A stretch of DNA of 21,481 bases from a virus, in the IMG/VR virus record IMGVR_UViG_3300028191_000285, positions 1 through 21,481 of that record; one strand, given 5' to 3'. Positions 3,176-21,028 of the stretch are shown in pieces. The notes beneath the pieces were generated by a model, which saw only the letters and a list, made by a program, of their open reading frames with translations, was not told the origin of the DNA and searched no databases. The first letter of the stretch is position 1, and the number at the start of each line of letters is the position of its first letter. The position numbers were made by a program, and so were the translations under genes.

Positions 3176-4372
3176 ATGTTTGAATCAAATGATATTGATG
3201 CAATTGCTATGCCTGATTTCAAAATTAAAGAATCAGCAATACCAAATCTAAAAATAAAATCTCTACGGCTACAAGGGTATAAGGCTTTTGAAGACTATAC
3301 ATTAGATTTTACCAATAAAGACGGAAGTGTAAAAAACTTCTGTTGTTTTTTTGGACCTAATGGATGTGGCAAAACTACAATCCTTAATGCGGTTCAGTTG
3401 GTCTTTTCTAGATTTGAAGGAATGGCAGGTAAGCGTCTAAGAACTTTATTGGGTAAATCAGTAAGACACGATAATTCAGGTGCTGTTAATGGTATTTATG
3501 GAGAGAGTGATTTTCTAGTTACGGCTACCATAAGTGACCCCAATGGAGATTACGAAGTTAGAATTAATAAGGACGGGTTTATTGAGGGGTATGACCACTC
3601 TCAAGATACTAAAAATGTACTTAAAAGAATTTTATACTACACAAGGTTTGATATGGAACTAGATAAATTCCAGTTAGCTAGATCTAAATGGGAGTTATTT
3701 AAAGAGTTGTTTGAAGCGGTTACTGGATTTAAAATTAAAGAGGAAATAGGGCTGTTTGATGAGAGCGAAGATCCCCTACAAGCAGAAATGTTACATAAGT
3801 ATGTCCTTGGCTTTACAGTACATAAGCCGAATGAAATAATTACCCATAGGGAATGTAGTGCAGGGGAGAGAAAGATAATTAAGTCGTTCTCAACGCTATT
3901 AAATCAAGAGTATATTCCAAGGGTAATACTTGTTGATAATATAGCTATGCATGTTGAATCAGGTAGACATTTGGAGTTAATAAAAAGTATGAAAAAATGT
4001 TTTCCAGAGAGTCAAATTTTTGCAACAACACATAGTTACCAAATATCTAAAAATTTTGGAGAAAGAAATCAACTTTTTGATCTAAGATTAATGAACGCTC
4101 CTTGTATAATAAAAAACAAACCATGGAGGTTGTATTGGGTAGATGAAATAAAGGATGCGATACCAAAACTTAGATCTATGTCTACCGTTGATTCTAGGCA
4201 AATTGATAGGATGGTTCAGCATGGAGAGGATTTAGTTAATGAGTGCTTAACTAAAGATAAGTCTTCTAATATAGAATTTAGAGTTAAAATGTTTTTGGCA
4301 GATGTTGTAGGGGCTTATACATCTGATATTTTAGAATACTATAAAAAAGACGAGGGGGGAAGTTTAAAATGA
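3176..4372 (+). CDS. ABC/AAA-type ATPase (RecF/OLD-like, AAA_15/AAA_21 class)
   Basis: 398 residues. The Walker A motif GPNGCGKT is at 60-67, after an SMC/RecF-like N-terminal strand (LRLQGYKAFEDYTLDF). An ABC signature-like SAGER lies at 228-232, Walker B VILVDN at ~250-255 and an H-loop-like TTHS at 284-287. The layout is that of compact ABC ATPases without a long coiled coil. Family members usually end Walker B with D-E, where the Glu activates water; here D254 is followed by N255, so hydrolysis may be slow or use another residue. No nuclease (TOPRIM) domain follows, unlike OLD proteins. Roles known for relatives include DNA repair and recombination, nucleotide-driven switching and defence; the role here is unknown. 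The stop overlaps the nrdJ start in ATGA (4369-4372), so the two are coupled. The upstream AGGT is a weak ribosome site. Confidence 0.82.
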   Translation: MFESNDIDAIAMPDFKIKESAIPNLKIKSLRLQGYKAFEDYTLDFTNKDGSVKNFCCFFGPNGCGKTTILNAVQLVFSRFEGMAGKRLRTLLGKSVRHDNSGAVNGIYGESDFLVTATISDPNGDYEVRINKDGFIEGYDHSQDTKNVLKRILYYTRFDMELDKFQLARSKWELFKELFEAVTGFKIKEEIGLFDESEDPLQAEMLHKYVLGFTVHKPNEIITHRECSAGERKIIKSFSTLLNQEYIPRVILVDNIAMHVESGRHLELIKSMKKCFPESQIFATTHSYQISKNFGERNQLFDLRLMNAPCIIKNKPWRLYWVDEIKDAIPKLRSMSTVDSRQIDRMVQHGEDLVNECLTKDKSSNIEFRVKMFLADVVGAYTSDILEYYKKDEGGSLK

Positions 4373-7300
4373 GTAAAGTATATACAAGAGATGAGGTAGT
4401 AGAAGCCTCAACACAGTATTTTAACGGAGATAAGTTAGCGGCTGGCGTTTTTGCTAATAAGTATTCTCTTAAAAATAGCAAATTAGAATATACTGAAGAT
4501 AATCCCGAAGTGATGCACAAAAGAATGGCTAAGGAGTTTGCTAGGGCAGAAGCTAAGTTTCCTAACCCCATGTCAGAAGAAGAAATTTTTAAGATGTTTG
4601 ATCATTTTAATGAAGTTGTTCCCGGCGGTAGTTCTATGTTTGGATTGGGTAATAATTTTCAAAAGGTAAGTTTAAGTAATTGTTTTGTAATTGATACAGT
4701 TGATAGTTATGGTGGTATCTGTAGAACTGATGAAAGAATAGTTCAGATATCTAAAAGAAGGGGTGGAGTTGGAGTTGATATATCTCCTATTCGTCCTAAA
4801 GGTATGTCCACAAGAAATAGCGCATTTACTACTGATGGTATCGTTGTCTTTATGGATAGATTTTCTAATTCCGCTCGTGAAGTAGCTCAAAATGGGCGGC
4901 GTGGCGCATTGATGATTAGTATATCTGTTCATCATCCTGAGATTATGAATTTTATCAGAGTTAAAAGAGATCTTGAAAAAGTTACAGGCGCAAATATTTC
5001 TGTAAGAGTTACCGATGAATTTATGAAGGCTGTTAAAAAAGATAAACCCTATGAGCAACGTTGGCCTGTAGATTCAGCAACTCCTTCAATGTCCGCAATG
5101 GTAGACGCAAAAGAAGTATGGAATGAAATGATTAAATCAGTTTATCTTTCTGCCGAGCCGGGTATATTATTTTGGGATACTATAATTAGAAATAGTCCCG
5201 CAGATAGTTATGCTCATTTAGGATTTAAAACAACTTCAACAAATCCATGCATTACTGGTGAAACACTTGTATATGTAGCAGATGGAAGAGGGGATGTTTC
5301 AATAAAAGAGCTTGCCGATGAAGGAAAAGATGTTCCTGTATTTTGTTATGATGATAAGGGTAAATTAACTATTGAAACCATGAGACACCCTAGGGTTACG
5401 GGGTATAATGAGCCTATTTACAAAGTAACATTAGACGACGGATCTACCGTTAGGGCTACTGCTAATCATAAGTTCCTAACCTCCGATGGAGAATACAAAA
5501 GGGTTGACGAGATTAAAGAAGGAGAGAGCCTTAAAATACTTACTAAATATGAAGCAAGTATGTCGTCATCTATAAAGGCTGAAAGCGGGAGTAGGTCTAA
5601 AACTTTATATAATTGGCTTACAGATAAATTTAGAGGGACAAGAGGTGAGCATAGGTATATAGCAGAACATGTTAATCAGAGAGAGCTATGTGGTGGAGAA
5701 ATAGTACACCATAAGGATTACAACGGGCTGAATAATAGCCCTGATAATTTAAAGGTAATGGGGTATGACGCACACAATAAATTTCATGCTAGGGATATGA
5801 TGGGTGATAATAATCCTATGCGTAGGGCTAAACATGAATGGTCAGAAGAAAAATGGCAACAATATCATAATACTATGTCTAAAGCTGTTTCGGGAGAGTT
5901 GAACGGTAGGTTTACAGGATTTAGTAATAAGGAGGTTCGAGAACACGCTATAGAATTAACAAAAAATCTTAATCGTAGATTCTCTAAAAGAGATTGGCAG
6001 AAATATGCTCGAAACAATAATCTTCCTATAGAATTTTCTGATTGGAGAAAAGATAATATAGGTTCAGTTTTAAATCTCTCAAAATGGGCATCTATAGAGG
6101 TAGGGATAGAATACGTAGACGAAGATCCCCGCTTGGTTAAAACATTAAAATTAATGATAGAGCAGGGGTACAACTCCTTTATTGACGGTGATAAGGTTTT
6201 TGTTGAGAAGAGTTGCGAAGAGTGTGGTAGTACATTTACAAGAGAACATTTGCAGAGAGAAGTAAGCTTTTGTAGCGGAACATGTGCTAACTTTTATAAA
6301 GATAGACATGGGGTTAATGAAAAAAGAACAGACACTATAAATGCTACTTATAAAAAGAAATCAGATAAAAACAAGCATAAGCAGTTAAAGATATTTACTG
6401 GGCTAAAATTTAACCTAGGTAGAATGCCATTATTAAAAGAGTGGGAGAAGGAATGTAAAAGTAACGGCGTTCCTTGTCGGTTTAAAACTAAATACGGGTT
6501 TGAATCATACAAAAAAGTTAAAGAATCGGCAGAAACGTTTAACCATAGGGTTGTTTCTGTAGAATTAGATGGATATGAAGATGTTTATAATGGAACAGTT
6601 GATAAATTTCATAATTTTTTCATTGGAGGATTTAAAGGGTTGACAAGGCAGAATAATCGTAAGTCGTTGTATGTCAACAACTTAAATTGTGGTGAGCTTC
6701 CCCTCTGCGAAGCCGATTCGTGCAGGCTTATGTCTATCAATTTAATGGCTATGGTAGATGACCCGTTTACAGATAAGGCTAAATTTAATGATGAAAAATA
6801 CAAAAATATCATTAGGAAGTCAATGAGACTAATGGATGATTTAGTTGAACTAGAACTTGAAGCTGTAGATGGCATTATCCAAAAAATAAAAAGCGATCCT
6901 GAGGCTGACAATGTAAAGGGAAATGAATTAAATTTATGGGAACAGGTTAAGGAAAAATGTTCTCAGGGGCGCAGAACGGGATTAGGAGTTACAGCCTTGG
7001 GCGATTGTATAGCAATGCTTGGAATTAAGTATGGAGATAAAGATTCTCTCAAGATGGTAGATAAGATTTATAAAATGCTACGAGACGAATCTTATCGAGC
7101 TTCTATTGAAATGGCTAAAGAACGTGGATCTTTTCCTATTTATGATAGTAAACTAGAAAAGGATAATGAGTTTATTCAGCGCCTCCCCGAAGATATATTA
7201 AAAGACATGAAGAAACACGGTAGGAGGAATATTGGTTGCCTTACTACAGCTCCTTCAGGTTCTATTTCTGTTGTAGCTCAAACATCTTCGGGTTTTGAGC

Positions 7301-8334
7301 CAGTATTTAAAGCTAAGTATGTTCGTAAAAGAAAAATAAGTGAAAGTGAAAACGTAGAGCCTGATTTTGTAGACGAACTCGGAGATAAATGGAAAGAGTA
7401 TGAGGTTCTACACCATGGATTAACTAAATACAAAGAAATTACTGGTAAGGGTTTTGAGGGAAGCCCATATGACGGTGCGCAAGCTAATGAATTAGATCAT
7501 AGTATGAGAGTTAAGATGCAGGCAACAGCAACTAAGTATGTTTGCCATGCTATTTCTTCTACAATTAATCTTCCAAAAGATGTAGATTTTGAAGTTGTTG
7601 AAAGTCTATATATGCAAGCTTGGGAACAGGGCTGTAAAGGGCTAACTGTTTATAGAGAAGAGAGTAGAGATGGCGTTTTAACAAGTTCAGGACATAATAC
7701 AACTAGAACGTGCGAAGATTGCGATGAAGCTGGAAAACAATTTGCTGAATTAGTTAAAGGTGGATTAAGACCTTCAGCTATTATTTTATCTGCTTCTCCT
7801 ACTAGACCAAAGGCTTTAGAATGTGATATTCAAAGAAGTAGGGTTGGTGGTGGAGATTGGATTTTCCTTGTGGGTAAGCTAAATGGACAGCCCTATGAGA
7901 TATTTGGAGGAGACAGTAATGAGTTTGCAATTCCTCATAAATATAAGAAGGGATGGATTGTTAAAAATGGCAAGGTAGATGGAGTTACTCAGTACAACCT
8001 TATTCTTGGATCTTTAGACGATGAGAATGAAAAGCTTGAGTTTAAGGGGATCGCTAAGCATTTCAATAATTATGAATATGGAGCGTTCACAAGGCTCTGT
8101 AGCTTAACAATAAGACATGGTACTCCTGTTAAGTATATCTGCGAACAAATCATTAAGAAAGGCGTAGAAGGGGAGTTATTTAGCTTTCAAAGGGCTATGG
8201 CTAGGGTTCTTAAGAAATATATAGGCGATGATGAAAAAAGCGAGACAGAATGCGAAGAATGTGGCGCAAAAGAAATGGTTTATAGAGCTGGATGTCCTAC
8301 CTGTATGGTCTGCGGTCACTCTAAGTGCGCATAA
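4369..8334 (+). CDS. nrdJ: Class II (adenosylcobalamin-dependent) ribonucleotide reductase precursor with intein
   Basis: 1321-residue precursor; removal of the 480-residue intein (294-773) leaves 841 residues, normal for NrdJ. It reduces ribonucleotides to deoxyribonucleotides using a thiyl radical generated from coenzyme B12, without a small subunit. The N-terminal extein carries SNCFVID (C105, one of the redox cysteines) and RRGGVGVDISPIRPKG. The catalytic loop NPCGE is split: N292 and P293, then C774 (radical Cys) and E776 after the intein, with the second redox cysteine C785 eleven residues on. PSGSISVVAQTSSGFEPVF follows. A TSCPD-type region (RPSAIILSASPTRPKALE) and a Cys-rich tail (CEECGA...GCPTCMVCGHSKCA) are hallmarks of class II enzymes. 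It is coupled to the ATPase by ATGA and followed directly by a terminator, so it ends unit 1. It supplies DNA precursors for phage replication. The enzyme should be inactive until the intein splices. Confidence 0.95.
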   Translation: MSKVYTRDEVVEASTQYFNGDKLAAGVFANKYSLKNSKLEYTEDNPEVMHKRMAKEFARAEAKFPNPMSEEEIFKMFDHFNEVVPGGSSMFGLGNNFQKVSLSNCFVIDTVDSYGGICRTDERIVQISKRRGGVGVDISPIRPKGMSTRNSAFTTDGIVVFMDRFSNSAREVAQNGRRGALMISISVHHPEIMNFIRVKRDLEKVTGANISVRVTDEFMKAVKKDKPYEQRWPVDSATPSMSAMVDAKEVWNEMIKSVYLSAEPGILFWDTIIRNSPADSYAHLGFKTTSTNPCITGETLVYVADGRGDVSIKELADEGKDVPVFCYDDKGKLTIETMRHPRVTGYNEPIYKVTLDDGSTVRATANHKFLTSDGEYKRVDEIKEGESLKILTKYEASMSSSIKAESGSRSKTLYNWLTDKFRGTRGEHRYIAEHVNQRELCGGEIVHHKDYNGLNNSPDNLKVMGYDAHNKFHARDMMGDNNPMRRAKHEWSEEKWQQYHNTMSKAVSGELNGRFTGFSNKEVREHAIELTKNLNRRFSKRDWQKYARNNNLPIEFSDWRKDNIGSVLNLSKWASIEVGIEYVDEDPRLVKTLKLMIEQGYNSFIDGDKVFVEKSCEECGSTFTREHLQREVSFCSGTCANFYKDRHGVNEKRTDTINATYKKKSDKNKHKQLKIFTGLKFNLGRMPLLKEWEKECKSNGVPCRFKTKYGFESYKKVKESAETFNHRVVSVELDGYEDVYNGTVDKFHNFFIGGFKGLTRQNNRKSLYVNNLNCGELPLCEADSCRLMSINLMAMVDDPFTDKAKFNDEKYKNIIRKSMRLMDDLVELELEAVDGIIQKIKSDPEADNVKGNELNLWEQVKEKCSQGRRTGLGVTALGDCIAMLGIKYGDKDSLKMVDKIYKMLRDESYRASIEMAKERGSFPIYDSKLEKDNEFIQRLPEDILKDMKKHGRRNIGCLTTAPSGSISVVAQTSSGFEPVFKAKYVRKRKISESENVEPDFVDELGDKWKEYEVLHHGLTKYKEITGKGFEGSPYDGAQANELDHSMRVKMQATATKYVCHAISSTINLPKDVDFEVVESLYMQAWEQGCKGLTVYREESRDGVLTSSGHNTTRTCEDCDEAGKQFAELVKGGLRPSAIILSASPTRPKALECDIQRSRVGGGDWIFLVGKLNGQPYEIFGGDSNEFAIPHKYKKGWIVKNGKVDGVTQYNLILGSLDDENEKLEFKGIAKHFNNYEYGAFTRLCSLTIRHGTPVKYICEQIIKKGVEGELFSFQRAMARVLKKYIGDDEKSETECEECGAKEMVYRAGCPTCMVCGHSKCA
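5248..6687 (+). other. Intein with HNH homing endonuclease inside nrdJ
   Basis: Residues 294-773 of the nrdJ precursor. It begins CITGETLVYVADG (splicing block A; Cys1) and has block B-like TVRATANHKFLT. It ends with block F-like DVYNGTVDKFHNFFIGG and the terminal YVNNLN followed by Cys+1. The penultimate residue is Leu rather than the common His. The insert interrupts NP/CGE immediately before the catalytic cysteine, which doubles as the +1 splicing nucleophile. Between the splicing halves sits an HNH-type endonuclease region (IVHHKDYNGLNNSPDNLKVM, H447-H448, with HNKFH further on) and a CxxC...CxxxC zinc-finger-like segment (CEECGSTF...FCSGTC). HNH is less usual than LAGLIDADG in RNR inteins. 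All key splicing residues seem present, so it is likely functional. Confidence 0.95.
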
Positions 8335-15098: not shown

Positions 15099-16136
15099 AT
15101 GAAAAAGACAGCAATATCATTTACGCCATTTGATAATAGAAACGATAATGGGCAACCATCAATCGGACCTTCTACTCAAAAGTCGATAGTGCCAACAAAT
15201 AATGTTCATACAATACAAGATATTTTAAATGGAAGTCCTTATAAAACACCGGGATCAGGGGGAGACTGGGGTGTTGGAGAAAATTCTCAACCCGGTTCAT
15301 ATAAACCAGAGGGTGCGGATTATAAAAGACAAGAAAGGGACATGTCTATTATTAATAATATGTTGAGAGACAGACCTTCAGCGCATGAAATATGGAGAGT
15401 AAAAGTTCCCGGAGGTTCAAAAGATTTTATGTCTTTTAATACTGCTCAAGAGTATACAACAAAATTAAAAGATAAGGGTATTCGTAGTACATATGTAACG
15501 AGAGTAGCCCAAGTAGATAATAAGACTAAGGTTGTCGCAGCATCGGTAGAAAAGACGTTTATGATAGAATCTATTCACATAGGGAAAGGGGTAAAAGAAA
15601 CAGGAGCTGCTTTCTGCGTTGCTCCAACATATTTTATTACTTGCGCCCATGTTATTAATAATTACGATAAGAATAATATTTCAAACGATACAAGTCGTAC
15701 AGGTGATGTTTTTGTCAATATTCATTTTGGAGAAACAACAAAAAGAGCAACGGTTGTAGATATGGATTTACAGTTAGATATCTCCCTGTTACAATGCGAT
15801 ATAGATGTAGACCCCTTTATTTTAGATATTACTCCTATTGTGGGGCAAGATGTATTGTCTATTGGAAGCCCACACGGATATGAGAATAATGTTTCATCTG
15901 GTATTGTAGGTTCTTTAGATAGAAAGGTTTACGATTACAAAGGCGCTCCTAATTATATGTTCGCCGATATGTCCATATTCCCCGGAAATAGTGGAGGACC
16001 TGTTGTTGATGAAATGAATGGTAAAGTCGTAGGAATGGTAACACTGATAGTATCAAGCATAGGAGGGTTCGGATTAAACGCATGTCTACCGTCTAAATAT
16101 ATACAGGAATTTTGTAGTAGGACTATAAAATTATAA
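15099..16136 (+). CDS. Trypsin-like serine protease (HtrA/DegP-type fold)
   Basis: 345 residues. After a disordered Gly/Pro-rich N-terminus (1 to ~75), a small domain (~80-140) precedes a chymotrypsin-fold protease. The triad is H184 in ITCAHVINN, D227 in LQLDISLLQ and S298 in PGNSGGPVVDE, with the oxyanion glycines in place. GQDVLSIGSPHGYENNVSSG and VGMVTL further match HtrA-like catalytic domains; no PDZ domain follows. No signal peptide is seen, so it would act inside the host or in the virion. Tailed phages normally use other protease folds for capsid maturation, so this could be a prohead or accessory protease, or a host-directed one. Start supported by AAAGG 4 bases upstream. Promoter P5 and the structured leader precede it. 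Confidence 0.88.
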   Translation: MKKTAISFTPFDNRNDNGQPSIGPSTQKSIVPTNNVHTIQDILNGSPYKTPGSGGDWGVGENSQPGSYKPEGADYKRQERDMSIINNMLRDRPSAHEIWRVKVPGGSKDFMSFNTAQEYTTKLKDKGIRSTYVTRVAQVDNKTKVVAASVEKTFMIESIHIGKGVKETGAAFCVAPTYFITCAHVINNYDKNNISNDTSRTGDVFVNIHFGETTKRATVVDMDLQLDISLLQCDIDVDPFILDITPIVGQDVLSIGSPHGYENNVSSGIVGSLDRKVYDYKGAPNYMFADMSIFPGNSGGPVVDEMNGKVVGMVTLIVSSIGGFGLNACLPSKYIQEFCSRTIKL

Positions 16137-17076: not shown

Positions 17077-17107
17077 AAAAAAGCCACCCAATTTGGGTGG
17101 CTTTTTT
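17077..17107 (+). terminator. Rho-independent terminator
   Basis: GCCACCCA (17083-17090) pairs perfectly with TGGGTGGC (17094-17101), flanked by an A-run before and T6 after, the classic intrinsic terminator. The A/T symmetry lets it work on both strands. It ends the protease unit; promoter box P6 begins about 20 bases later. Confidence 0.93.
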
Positions 17108-17169: not shown

Positions 17170-20100
17170 ATGTTTATCAAAAAAATAGCACAAAATAATG
17201 CGTTTGATACTGACATTAAAAATGAAAGAATAATGTCTTTATTTAAACAAAAGGCTGATAGTGGGCAAATATATTGGAAACCTAACAATCCTTATAAAGA
17301 TACTAATGGGGATGTAATCTATAGTTATTTAGGATATGTTCTTCTTCAGGGACACAAATCTCCTAACCCAAATCAGATTTATTCTTTTAATTTGTCGGTT
17401 ATGTTTTCGGGCGATTGGCATGGTACTTATGAATCTTATATAGATTTGTATCTCAATAAATCAAGGGGCGTGTCAGGAGTAGGAGAAGAAAATATTGGGA
17501 GTTGGGTATTTAGGGATGTTCGAACAATTGAAACATTACTAAAGCCCTTTTTAAAAGCAGAGTTCGGCGTTGATATGCTAAGACTACCTAAAGAGGAAGA
17601 AGCGTATAAACAGAAACAGCAATCATTGTCTGGCATGGGAACAATCAAGAAAAATATAGCAGGTAAAGGAGTTATTGAAGGAATAAGATTAACAAGGCAT
17701 AAAAGTAGTGATTTTGGAGATGCCAAGTCTTTTGAGGTTTATGTTTATCCTGTTGAAGCGCCATTTCAGGGAGAGAAAATATTTGTTACAGCTTACAAAA
17801 TAAAAAATTTAGAAAGACAGTCAGATGAAGGTGAGAAGGTTAAATTTTCAGGAGATTTAGAACAATCTATTGATCAGATGAATGAGTTAATAAGTAGAGC
17901 CAAAGCTAATAAGTACGTAGACGAAACTTCAACACTAGTCCCGTATATTCCATCAAACGCAACTCCCATTAATTATGATTTTGTATTAAGAAGATTTAAA
18001 GAAGGGGAAGTCTCAAACGAAGGGGCAGATGAAAACAGAATAGAGAACCAAGATCCTCCGCAAATAAATATAAACACTTTCGGAGGAACAAACAAAGACA
18101 TAAAAATAGCTCAAAATTTTGAAGGTTATTATTCTGGTGATGTTCCCAACTATGCTGTTCAAAACTTAGGAACAGGGGCTGTAGATGCCTCTCAAGTTTC
18201 ATCTATGTTTGGCAAGGCTGATGATGCAATAAGACTTGTTAATGAGTTTAATTCGTCTTTGCTTAGTACTGTATCGTTTATTTTTAATTTTTCAAAGGGT
18301 GGGGCATATGGAGTTTATTTATCCGAGTTAGACAGGGCTATTAAAACTAAAGCTCTTCAGAGAAAATTAGAGGCTTCTGGATATAGGGTAGAAAATGAAG
18401 ATGGAATGCTTAGGGCTTATCCCACCAAAGAAGAGAAGTCCTCGGAGCAAATACAACAAGATATAGATACTATATATGCCGATTTAGAATCTAAGGGTGG
18501 AACTGCTTTTGGAATAAATATGAATAGCGTTTTAAATGCAGCTAAACAGGATGCTATGTCGGCTCAGTCAGAAGATCCTAATATATGGGAATGGATGGCT
18601 ATGTTACACTTGGGTGGTACAATCGTTCATGAGGCTGTTCATGCTAAAGGGAATCATGATGAAGGTCCTTCTGAGAATGCCGAAGCCGCTTTCACTTCTT
18701 GGGCATTACCTAAAATTAACCAACAATATATGCAGTCCTTAGAAACACAAGGTAAGGGTGAAATGTTCGCTCCCATAATTATAGGGACAGGAACAAGAAG
18801 CGCCGCTAAACAAGTGACATGGTATAAAAAAGCTCAATATAGTAATTACGCTCCTCAGGCACTTAATGGAGGGAAAGCGACAGGATCGGATTTATCAGGA
18901 AGAGCGGGTGAATATAAACCTCAAGAAGGAATGGCAGATTGGGGTTTATTAGCTCAGCAGGATCAAAATATTCCATTAGAAGAGAAACTAGGTAGAGGAT
19001 TTATGTCTCCTATTCCTCAAGACCTAGATCAAGAACACGACAGTTATGAAGAGCAGTTAAGAAAGTATACTAGGGAGGACGAAAGACATGCTCATGATGC
19101 TACTATGGAAGACCTATTATCACGAGACTATGACGATGAAAATACCCCTTATAAGTCTATAGAAGAATTATTAGATGAAAGAAGACCTAAACCCTTAATG
19201 ATTCCCCTTGATAGGACAGCTTCAAATAATATGATTAAAACAGCAACTTTATTTGGATGGATGAATAATTTAGAAATATCGGATGGTTCAACTATTCCGG
19301 GGTTATCAGATAGAGTTATGCCTTGGGAAGATGGAGAGGAAGATTTTGCTTGGACTGAAAAAGATATAAGAAGTCAACCCCGATATAACCCCGAATATGA
19401 TATTAAAGGCTTTTATTATAGGTGGATAGACCCAAGACTTAAGCCCCAATTATTTGATGATATGACAAGGGATTATTCGGGGACACATCCTGCTAAGAGA
19501 TTCGCTTCTGAGGGTAAAAATGTCTCTCTAACTAAAGTATTCAATATTCTTACTGTAGCTAAAAGAAAGGTGGCAAGAGGTAATATCCATGCCACTAGGT
19601 TTGTTATGTCAGAAGATATATTAAAATTGGTTGAAGATGTATTAGAATCTAATTCTGATGTTAGCCTTATGGTAAAATACATAAGAGAGGATAAGAATAC
19701 AAATGATGATGTTTATGCAGTTTGGATTTATTCTAAGGGAATTAGCGAATCCAAAGTTAGAATGGCGGAAGATATATTCTCAAAAGGTGGAGATGTAGAT
19801 GAGGATATGTTTGAGGAATTATTTAATGTTAAATCTAAAAAAGAACAGACAATAAAAACCATCATCACTAATGCTAAGAAAATTTGTAAAGAGTATAGTA
19901 TTGAAGATGTTTATTTGGTGGGGGGCTATCCAAGGGCAATAGCGGCTGGAGAACCCATATATACTGTTGAAGATTTAGATTTTAGTGGAGCATGGCCTAA
20001 CCAAAGTATAAAAGTAGGCGGATTGTTAGCTGAGAGATTGGGAGTGAAAAATGCTCAAATTTATCATAGAACAATGACACTCTCGTTTGTATATAAGGGA

Positions 20101-20559
20101 ATTAAGGTTGATTTTAAGGGTAATTTTTCTCCTATTGAAATAAGAAAACAAATGAGAGATAACGATATAGCAACAACTCCCCTTAATATGGACATCTATA
20201 ATAGGGATTTCACTGTCAATATGCTTGTTTATGACATTAATAAGGATGAAGTTTTTGATATTTCTGGAGAATCTATTAAAAACTTAAACTCAAAAATTAT
20301 AAGAACCTATTTTGACCCTGATTATATATGTAGGCAAAATCCCTTAATTATAATGAGGGCTTTGAAATTTAAAATGAGGGGCTATAAAATAGATCCAGAT
20401 TTAGAAAGAGCAATGATAATGAATTCCCCACTATTATTTGATGGGAGATATTCGGATTCAAGAATTTTAATGGCTAGAGGAGTTATTGAGGAAGGAGGCT
20501 CTGATTTAGCCGATGAATTATTTAATGAGTACGGATTAGACAAAATAAAGGAGTATTAA
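17170..20559 (+). CDS. Multi-domain protein: unknown N-terminus, HExxH zincin-like region, CCA-adding-type nucleotidyltransferase
   Basis: 1129 residues; GGTGGAG 7-8 bases upstream sets the start. Residues 1 to ~305 start MFIKKIAQNN and match no known family. From I311 (IKIAQNF) a second module carries HEAVH at 487-491, followed by ENAEAAF with E502/E505, a zinc-metalloprotease pattern resembling ImmA/IrrE-type zincins. A third segment opens with TWYKKAQ (550-556) and is acidic and probably disordered. A fourth starts near M688 (MIKTATLFGW). Its C-terminus (~905-1110) is a class II CCA-adding/poly(A) polymerase head and neck: LVGGYPRA (917-923), D935-L-D937, a third acidic residue D981 in KVDF, and NRDFTVN (1011-1017), followed by IIRTYFDPDY and IIMRALKFKMRGYKI. 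The metal-binding aspartates are intact, so it can probably transfer nucleotides; target (tRNA ends, other RNA, protein or small molecule) unknown. Such a fusion in one phage protein is unusual. Confidence 0.8.
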   Translation: MFIKKIAQNNAFDTDIKNERIMSLFKQKADSGQIYWKPNNPYKDTNGDVIYSYLGYVLLQGHKSPNPNQIYSFNLSVMFSGDWHGTYESYIDLYLNKSRGVSGVGEENIGSWVFRDVRTIETLLKPFLKAEFGVDMLRLPKEEEAYKQKQQSLSGMGTIKKNIAGKGVIEGIRLTRHKSSDFGDAKSFEVYVYPVEAPFQGEKIFVTAYKIKNLERQSDEGEKVKFSGDLEQSIDQMNELISRAKANKYVDETSTLVPYIPSNATPINYDFVLRRFKEGEVSNEGADENRIENQDPPQININTFGGTNKDIKIAQNFEGYYSGDVPNYAVQNLGTGAVDASQVSSMFGKADDAIRLVNEFNSSLLSTVSFIFNFSKGGAYGVYLSELDRAIKTKALQRKLEASGYRVENEDGMLRAYPTKEEKSSEQIQQDIDTIYADLESKGGTAFGINMNSVLNAAKQDAMSAQSEDPNIWEWMAMLHLGGTIVHEAVHAKGNHDEGPSENAEAAFTSWALPKINQQYMQSLETQGKGEMFAPIIIGTGTRSAAKQVTWYKKAQYSNYAPQALNGGKATGSDLSGRAGEYKPQEGMADWGLLAQQDQNIPLEEKLGRGFMSPIPQDLDQEHDSYEEQLRKYTREDERHAHDATMEDLLSRDYDDENTPYKSIEELLDERRPKPLMIPLDRTASNNMIKTATLFGWMNNLEISDGSTIPGLSDRVMPWEDGEEDFAWTEKDIRSQPRYNPEYDIKGFYYRWIDPRLKPQLFDDMTRDYSGTHPAKRFASEGKNVSLTKVFNILTVAKRKVARGNIHATRFVMSEDILKLVEDVLESNSDVSLMVKYIREDKNTNDDVYAVWIYSKGISESKVRMAEDIFSKGGDVDEDMFEELFNVKSKKEQTIKTIITNAKKICKEYSIEDVYLVGGYPRAIAAGEPIYTVEDLDFSGAWPNQSIKVGGLLAERLGVKNAQIYHRTMTLSFVYKGIKVDFKGNFSPIEIRKQMRDNDIATTPLNMDIYNRDFTVNMLVYDINKDEVFDISGESIKNLNSKIIRTYFDPDYICRQNPLIIMRALKFKMRGYKIDPDLERAMIMNSPLLFDGRYSDSRILMARGVIEEGGSDLADELFNEYGLDKIKEY

Positions 20560-20560
20560 T

Positions 20561-21028
20561 ATGCCTATACCTATTAGAGCAATACCAGATCATACAATAG
20601 AGGATAAGAATAATTCTGGAGTAGATTATTCCTTTCTTACTAATTACTTTACAGCCAAGCCTAGCAATAAAAAGATAGTAACAGCAAGTAATCAGGATGC
20701 ATCTTTATTATTTGAAATATGGCGCAAAGGGGAAAAGGCTAAAAATGGAGACAGCATTAAGGTGGCTGATTGCAAAATAAATAATCAAGAAATCCTTAGA
20801 CTTAAAACAATGGGATTAATTACAGGTGGAGCAGATACCATTAAAATAACAGAAAGGGGCAAAAGAGTTATAACGGTTATGGCTTTAGGTGAAGTTAATA
20901 AGTTTGAAAAGAGTAAACAAAATAAGCCATATAACGAAATTTTAGCTGGACTATCTAAAAAAGATAAACCCGGATATAGAATACCTAAATTTGCCGCTAG
21001 CTCTTCAAATAACCTAAGATTGGGATAA
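20561..21028 (+). CDS. Winged-helix-like small protein
   Basis: 155 residues with a good ribosome site (AAGGAG before tattaatATG), one base after the preceding stop. Residues 1-45 are extended and include KKIVTASNQ, a form of the recurring K-x-A peptide. The central part (INNQEILRLKTMGLITGG, then IKITERGKRVITVM) has the helix-turn-helix-plus-wing pattern of winged-helix proteins, where a gene-silent polar tail (KPGYRIPKFAASSSNN) follows. It may bind DNA or serve as a protein-protein adaptor; no specific family can be named. Confidence 0.65.
   Translation: MPIPIRAIPDHTIEDKNNSGVDYSFLTNYFTAKPSNKKIVTASNQDASLLFEIWRKGEKAKNGDSIKVADCKINNQEILRLKTMGLITGGADTIKITERGKRVITVMALGEVNKFEKSKQNKPYNEILAGLSKKDKPGYRIPKFAASSSNNLRLG

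Follow-up and report, generated by a model that had tools for sequence, protein, structure and literature searches.

A head-cluster protein of uncultured huge phages joins a probable zincin module to an eroding CCA-type nucleotidyltransferase fold and bears a recurrent short motif at its module borders

Results

P0001 Is an Intact Fusion Conserved in Uncultured Phages

What might a phage protein do that carries both an HExxH peptidase-type motif and the fold of a tRNA enzyme, and is the joining of the two real? This question is raised by P0001, a long ORF in the window, by which we mean the whole 21,481-nucleotide stretch of viral DNA that was analyzed. A preliminary description had read its product as a fusion of an HExxH zincin-like module with a CCA-adding/poly(A)-polymerase-type nucleotidyltransferase. 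The ORF is continuous, with HEAVH, ENAEAAF, GG (residue 918), DLD, D981 (within KVDFKG), and RDF (from residue 1012) all placed as described, and the joining of the HExxH module and the CCA/poly(A)-polymerase-type fold in one intact ORF is confirmed. Family libraries recognized no family in P0001 outside PF01743. The layout is as follows.

17170..20559, + strand: whole P0001 ORF, 1129 aa, free of internal stops, with eight homologs
17176..17193, + strand: N-terminal motif IKKIAQ (aa 3-8), the same kind of tag as in the MNWYKKAQ/MKIYKIA ORFs of related contigs
17200..17574, + strand: optional N-terminal predicted alpha/beta domain (about aa 11-135), AF2 model mostly at pLDDT 63-81
18100..18114, + strand: internal motif IKIAQ (aa 311-315), inside a predicted disordered linker
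18142..18789, + strand: zincin-like module (about aa 325-540), with a separate AF2 model
18628..18663, + strand: HEAVH (aa 487-491) with G494 and E498, the predicted zinc site, invariant in 9/9
18820..18837, + strand: internal motif WYKKAQ (aa 551-556), A555 and Q556 invariant in 9/9
18838..19527, + strand: predicted disordered region (aa 557-786), which includes conserved stretches such as FGWMNNLEISDGSTIPGL
19234..19248, + strand: internal motif IKTAT (aa 689-693), KxA kept in most homologs
19528..19833, + strand: small alpha/beta domain (aa 787-888), AF2 model, with a lone weak structural match (2guk, Z 8.2)
19834..20556, + strand: class II nucleotidyltransferase head and neck fold (aa 889-1129), matching PF01743 and 4wby
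19972..19980, + strand: DLD (aa 935-937), the catalytic motif of CCA/PAP enzymes, intact here
20335..20349, + strand: QNPLI (aa 1056-1060), at the position of the EDxxR base-selection motif

Searching the viral contigs with the P0001 sequence alone gave no match. Relatives were reached via TerL, which led to three close ones, and then by profile and tag-pattern searches, giving eight homologs on uncultured phage contigs that are 30-52% identical to the window protein. Alignments with n = 9 comprise the window protein and these eight. The homologs are of 1,164 (G003), 971 (G002), 994 (G004), 1,235 (G017), 794 (G018, of which G015 is a near-copy), 811 (G014), 787 (L073), and 1,087 aa (L076), and the N-terminal alpha/beta domain is missing from four of them (G004, G018, G014, and L073). 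No homolog was found in the bacterial and archaeal genome contigs searched, and when cultured-phage records were searched by tblastn with the zincin module and with the middle region, no usable match was returned. The clade is known from metagenomic contigs alone and, since the contigs of the P0001 relatives reach 296-476 kb, it is a clade of huge phages.

The search for the same architecture in metagenomic phages, which the preliminary description had called for, thus found the two modules fused rather than in separate ORFs, within a single ORF in 9/9. The nucleotidyltransferase of the G002 homolog is degenerate and cut short; this may reflect an assembly error at the 3' end, against which it can be said that the next gene begins 29 bases past the stop and that the GG region is separately deleted. 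Metagenomic contigs being the sole source, one might suspect a chance fusion without function or an assembly artefact, but nine contigs, the most divergent at 30% identity, show the same order and the neighbors are conserved, so that we consider this explanation extremely improbable. A gene-fusion artefact was rejected because the architecture is common to all nine contigs.

P0001 Lies in a Conserved Head Gene Cluster

The genes around P0001 keep the order TerL-p424-p292-HtrA-p154-p124-P0001-p155b, with some small genes unrecognized in more distant loci. Two of these neighbors in the window are the following.

15099..16136, + strand: HtrA-like trypsin-fold serine protease (PF13365, E = 4.4e-23), a conserved neighbor by synteny
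20561..21028, + strand: p155b, 155 aa, directly downstream of P0001 in all homologous loci

Downstream of p155b in G003 come a DUF192 protein, two AAA ATPases, the portal, an 1,800-aa protein with a maturation-protease domain, and the capsid protein. P0001 thus sits in the head cluster, upstream of the portal, maturation-protease, and capsid genes, and from this position its delivery with the virion is plausible.

Several other features of this neighborhood were recorded. The HtrA-like protease, which adjoins P0001 in all homologous loci, is a second candidate processor of head proteins. The two AAA ATPases of the G003 head cluster (L012:283-6192) are large, with 673 and 1,199 aa, and unusual there, while the G003 portal protein (L012:8951-11248) has a DUF559 endonuclease-like domain at its C terminus. 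Between p124 and P0001, a perfect hairpin (GCCACCC-AATTT-GGGTGGC, window 17077-17107) is flanked by A and T runs and is likely a terminator, although it was not picked up by the pattern scanner. A TATAAT-like string stands after the hairpin, ahead of the P0001 start.

The HExxH Module Is Probably a Zincin

H487, E488, H491, G494, and E498 are invariant in all nine aligned proteins. Modeled separately with AlphaFold, aa 317-549 gave a confident prediction, at a pLDDT of 84.6 and a pTM of 0.82, with HExxH on a predicted helix (aa 472-492) and E498 at the start of the next one (aa 498-526). E498 is the predicted third zinc ligand in this metal-free model. E505 was also considered for that role; it is Gln in two homologs and E498 was preferred.

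Structural realignment placed YbeY (1xm5) and a zincin-like metalloprotease (3e11) at the top, with Z of 7.1-7.9. The top five matches are all YbeY or zincin-like (Z 5.8-7.9), and another HExxH domain ranks eighth. The likeness is weak, with about 10-18% identity and additional helices, and Z values under 8 lie below the comfort level of the tool. The YbeY site consists of three His. Foldseek searches against the PDB and viral models gave no significant match, sequence searches of Pfam, PHROGs, NCBIfam, and the PDB returned noise only, and no relevant Pfam match for this part was obtained up to an E value of 10 in any of the nine members. Since the motif and the top structural matches agree but Z remains below 8, the zincin fold predicted from sequence and model is probable, not certain. 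The structure prediction suggested earlier for each module came out clearly for the nucleotidyltransferase (Z 20.9) and as a weak match for the zincin.

A tRNA-Enzyme Fold Is Losing Its Catalytic Residues

The C-terminal assignment is firmer. PF01743 (PolyA_pol) matches aa 914-1045 with an E value of 2.2e-9 and 38.2 bits (cut-off 23), and aa 889-1129 of the AlphaFold model match the structures of CCA-adding enzymes, with 213 residues aligned to 4wby at Z 20.9. Like class II CCA-adding enzymes and bacterial poly(A) polymerases, the window protein has the head and neck fold with GG, DLD, and RDF. Unlike class II CCA enzymes, the family has no EDxxR nucleotide-selection motif (0/9; the window protein has QNPLI, and the others having that region show xNPxx or CKPSS), and P0001 is without an RNA-binding body or tail, ending after the neck with no match to PF12627 or PF13735. 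The catalytic Asp residues are lost in most homologs. DxD is intact in three of the nine proteins (DLD in the window protein and G014, DID in L073), which also keep the third carboxylate; it is altered in G003 (EMD), G004 (NLD), G017 (KLE), G018 (ELE), and L076 (EIE) and lost in G002, and these six do not have the set of three. These findings show that the catalytic residues of the nucleotidyltransferase are eroding across the P0001 family.

How does this bear on the proposal, made in the preliminary description, that the C-terminal nucleotidyltransferase is active on RNA 3' ends and, by repairing or tailing tRNA or host RNA, counteracts defenses that cut tRNA? The fold, the PF01743 match, and the intact DLD, D981, and RDF of the window protein speak in its favor, as does the fact that jumbo phages carry CCA enzymes for RNA repair (PMC7824862). 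However, relatives encode separate enzymes of this kind: in G002, a 668-aa protein combines PolyA_pol with RNA-binding and HD domains and has an intact DDPLR, and G014, G015, G017, and G018 have further separate ORFs that resemble tRNA nucleotidyltransferases. In addition, no tRNAs or Rfam families were found within the window, which thus has no tRNA of its own to serve as cargo of a CCA enzyme. With DxD mostly lost, EDxxR absent, the body and tail missing, and separate CCA-type enzymes in relatives, a role of P0001 in RNA tailing or RNA-end repair appears unlikely from its sequence, and we give the active-enzyme explanation clearly less weight than the other functional alternatives weighed below. 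Activity may persist where the three carboxylates are kept, in the window protein, G014, and L073. The P0001 family is a clear case of a tRNA-enzyme fold that is losing catalysis inside a phage head-cluster protein, and it warns against annotating such proteins as "tRNA nucleotidyltransferase."

A Short Motif Recurs at the Module Borders of P0001

A motif of the form phi-K-x-A-[Q/S/T] is found at the N terminus of P0001 (MFIKKIAQ) and at three internal module borders (IKIAQ, WYKKAQ, and IKTAT), so that the zincin module is bracketed by copies at aa 311-315 and 551-556. The second and third copies lie in predicted disorder in the AF2 model and are more conserved than their flanks, with a pairwise identity for the third of 0.64 compared to 0.29 and 0.32 on either side. 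Two homologs without the N-terminal module, those of G004 and G018, have their own Met exactly at the second motif (MKIHKIGQDYQGFYSGDVPE and MKIIKVSQDYGGYYSGDAPE, respectively), and the N terminus of the G017 homolog reads MNWYKKAQ. Two homologs lack the second motif, and some have the fourth in weak form or not at all. The idea that P0001 is a polyprotein later split into separate enzymes, one of the roles suggested at the outset, gains unexpected support from these conserved motifs at module borders; cleavage there is a prediction from sequence.

The motif extends well beyond P0001. Among 263 ORFs of related contigs, phi-K-x-A-[QST] past residue 45 was observed 70 times against 19.5 ± 4.3 in shuffled sequences, counts in which homologous sites recur and are non-independent and for which ORFs were called mechanically. 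Permuted and single-change versions were close to expectation, with the partial exception of the Asp version (30 vs. 16.5), and unrelated phage contigs, used as a control, had 5 matches against 4.5 expected. The matches are concentrated in the P0001 family, p424, and long head proteins, with none in RNR, AAA, or HtrA. In the 1,800-aa protein, versions of the motif lie on both sides of a strongly conserved predicted head-maturation-protease domain (about aa 30-235). Those of G002 read GLVKLASG and FMVKTASI, and on each side two of the four orthologs have a strict match.

At N termini, the tag (MNWYKKAQ, MKIYKIA) is present in 26 of the 263 ORFs, compared to 0.4 expected, and these fall in 20 clusters whose bodies have no mutual similarity. 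A DNA pattern that encodes MxWYKxA gave 26 matches, spread over 17 records, and its reversed control gave 0; since synonymous codons vary among the matches, selection acts on the peptide. Runs of small tagged ORFs with unrelated bodies are found in G002 (L008:4570-8683) and G004 (L025:1324-2619), their starts reading MNWYKKA[QSTK] or nearly so, and one of these ORFs has a P-loop kinase-like start. The literature searched yielded no mention of WYKKA-type tags.

P0001 May Be a Precursor Cut at Its Internal Motifs

Our preferred reading, to which we assign a probability of about one half, is that P0001 is a multi-module head-cluster precursor that is cut at KxA[QST] by the maturation protease and packaged. 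The phi-K-x-A-[QST] motifs would be the sites recognized by the phage head-maturation protease. P0001 would be directed to the prohead and split near aa 8, 315, 556, and 692 (these positions being guesses) into about four pieces, which would be packaged into the head. The freed zincin might then cleave head proteins of the phage or a protein of the host, and the nucleotidyltransferase fold would have mostly a structural or nucleic-acid-binding function and not one in tailing tRNA.

More tentatively, and with rather less confidence than in the reading just given, we propose for the clade as a whole a tag of new specificity for head targeting and cleavage, similar to the T4 capsid targeting sequence. 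P0001 would then be a true polyprotein of tagged units, its zincin and pseudo-nucleotidyltransferase translated as one chain and cut at retained internal tags, and the tag would mark about a tenth of the proteins examined. In T4, the capsid targeting sequence is a 10-residue tag common to unrelated internal proteins, from which the prohead protease cuts it off (PMC9026906). The phi-K-x-A tag is likewise very short, N-terminal, on unrelated proteins, and with a simple putative cleavage motif, and as in T4 a head-maturation protease is encoded in the same gene cluster. The proteases of T4, phiKZ, and SPN3US, the last of which has a giant-phage version of the T4 system, cut after Glu, at xE motifs (PMC9026906 and PMC10052503), whereas phi-K-x-A-[QST] has no conserved Glu and has internal copies in one long protein. 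If the proposal is true, the tag would allow one to tell from sequence alone which of the many unknown proteins of these huge phages enter the head and, probably, are injected at infection, it would show where precursors are cut, and a non-glutamate cleavage specificity would be added to the head-maturation proteases.

Three other explanations deserve to be weighed against the maturation-protease reading. The zincin might itself be the processing enzyme, cutting the flanking KxAQ motifs to free itself and the other modules. Its bracketing by two motifs fits well, and autoprocessing has been proposed for the zincins of polyvalent proteins such as P1 DdrB (PMC5512222), but the motif also occurs in many head proteins and around a separate maturation protease, which therefore fits better and leaves autoprocessing by the zincin unlikely. 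The motif might also remain uncut and work as a short linear docking or targeting motif for a scaffold, portal, or host partner, with P0001 persisting as a multivalent scaffold. Conservation within disordered linkers would suit a docking peptide equally well and internal copies may allow multivalent binding. Placement at domain borders, flanking of the protease domain, and homologs that start at the motif are nonetheless more typical of cleavage or of module joining, and we regard docking, too, as an improbable account.

Alternatively, P0001 could be an injected effector whose zincin cleaves a specific host protein and whose remainder is delivery machinery. The invariant HExxH, the location in the head cluster, and the precedent of polyvalent proteins (PMC5512222) are in line with this idea, but nothing in the data indicates a host target and the conserved synteny of the head cluster points to a function within the particle, so that we place it on the same low footing as autoprocessing and docking.

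Comparison with Polyvalent Proteins

The preliminary description knew of no described precedent for this protein, a claim that has to be narrowed. According to Iyer et al. (2017, PMC5512222), no domain is commoner in phage-type polyvalent proteins than the zincin peptidase, and processing of these proteins before or after packaging is proposed. Multidomain polyvalent proteins with zincins, and others with Pol-beta nucleotidyltransferases, are described there; this domain pair and order was not found in the passages of the study that were consulted. Like P1 DdrB and N4 virion RNA polymerase (same source), P0001 is large and multidomain, has unrelated catalytic-type folds and a zincin module, and comes from a phage of the terminase-portal type, with processing proposed. 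Several unrelated catalytic-type domains are indeed present in one polypeptide of a terminase-portal phage, the zincin part being recognized by its motif and a weak fold match. P0001 differs from the polyvalent proteins covered there in its zincin sequence (no Pfam match) and in the KxA[QST] repeats at its borders. Moreover, the polyvalent nucleotidyltransferases in that source are minimal Pol-beta domains, mainly on firmicute conjugative elements, whereas P0001 has a CCA-type head and neck. Overall, the interpretation offered in the preliminary description is partly supported.

Other Features of the Window and Related Contigs

Elsewhere in the window (4369-8334), the large subunit of ribonucleotide reductase carries an intein of ~480 aa (Pfam Intein_splicing, with a weak HNH), which is missing at the same site in those relatives that cover the site. 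The TerL of G004 (L015:7691-10549) has a 367-aa insertion near the equivalent of residue 477 of the window TerL, possibly an intein. In G017 (L066:9196-12121), two neighboring ORFs begin almost identically (MEERKENWYRVEKKEIIQRKGYNRIIECSNSS) and look like a tandem duplication.
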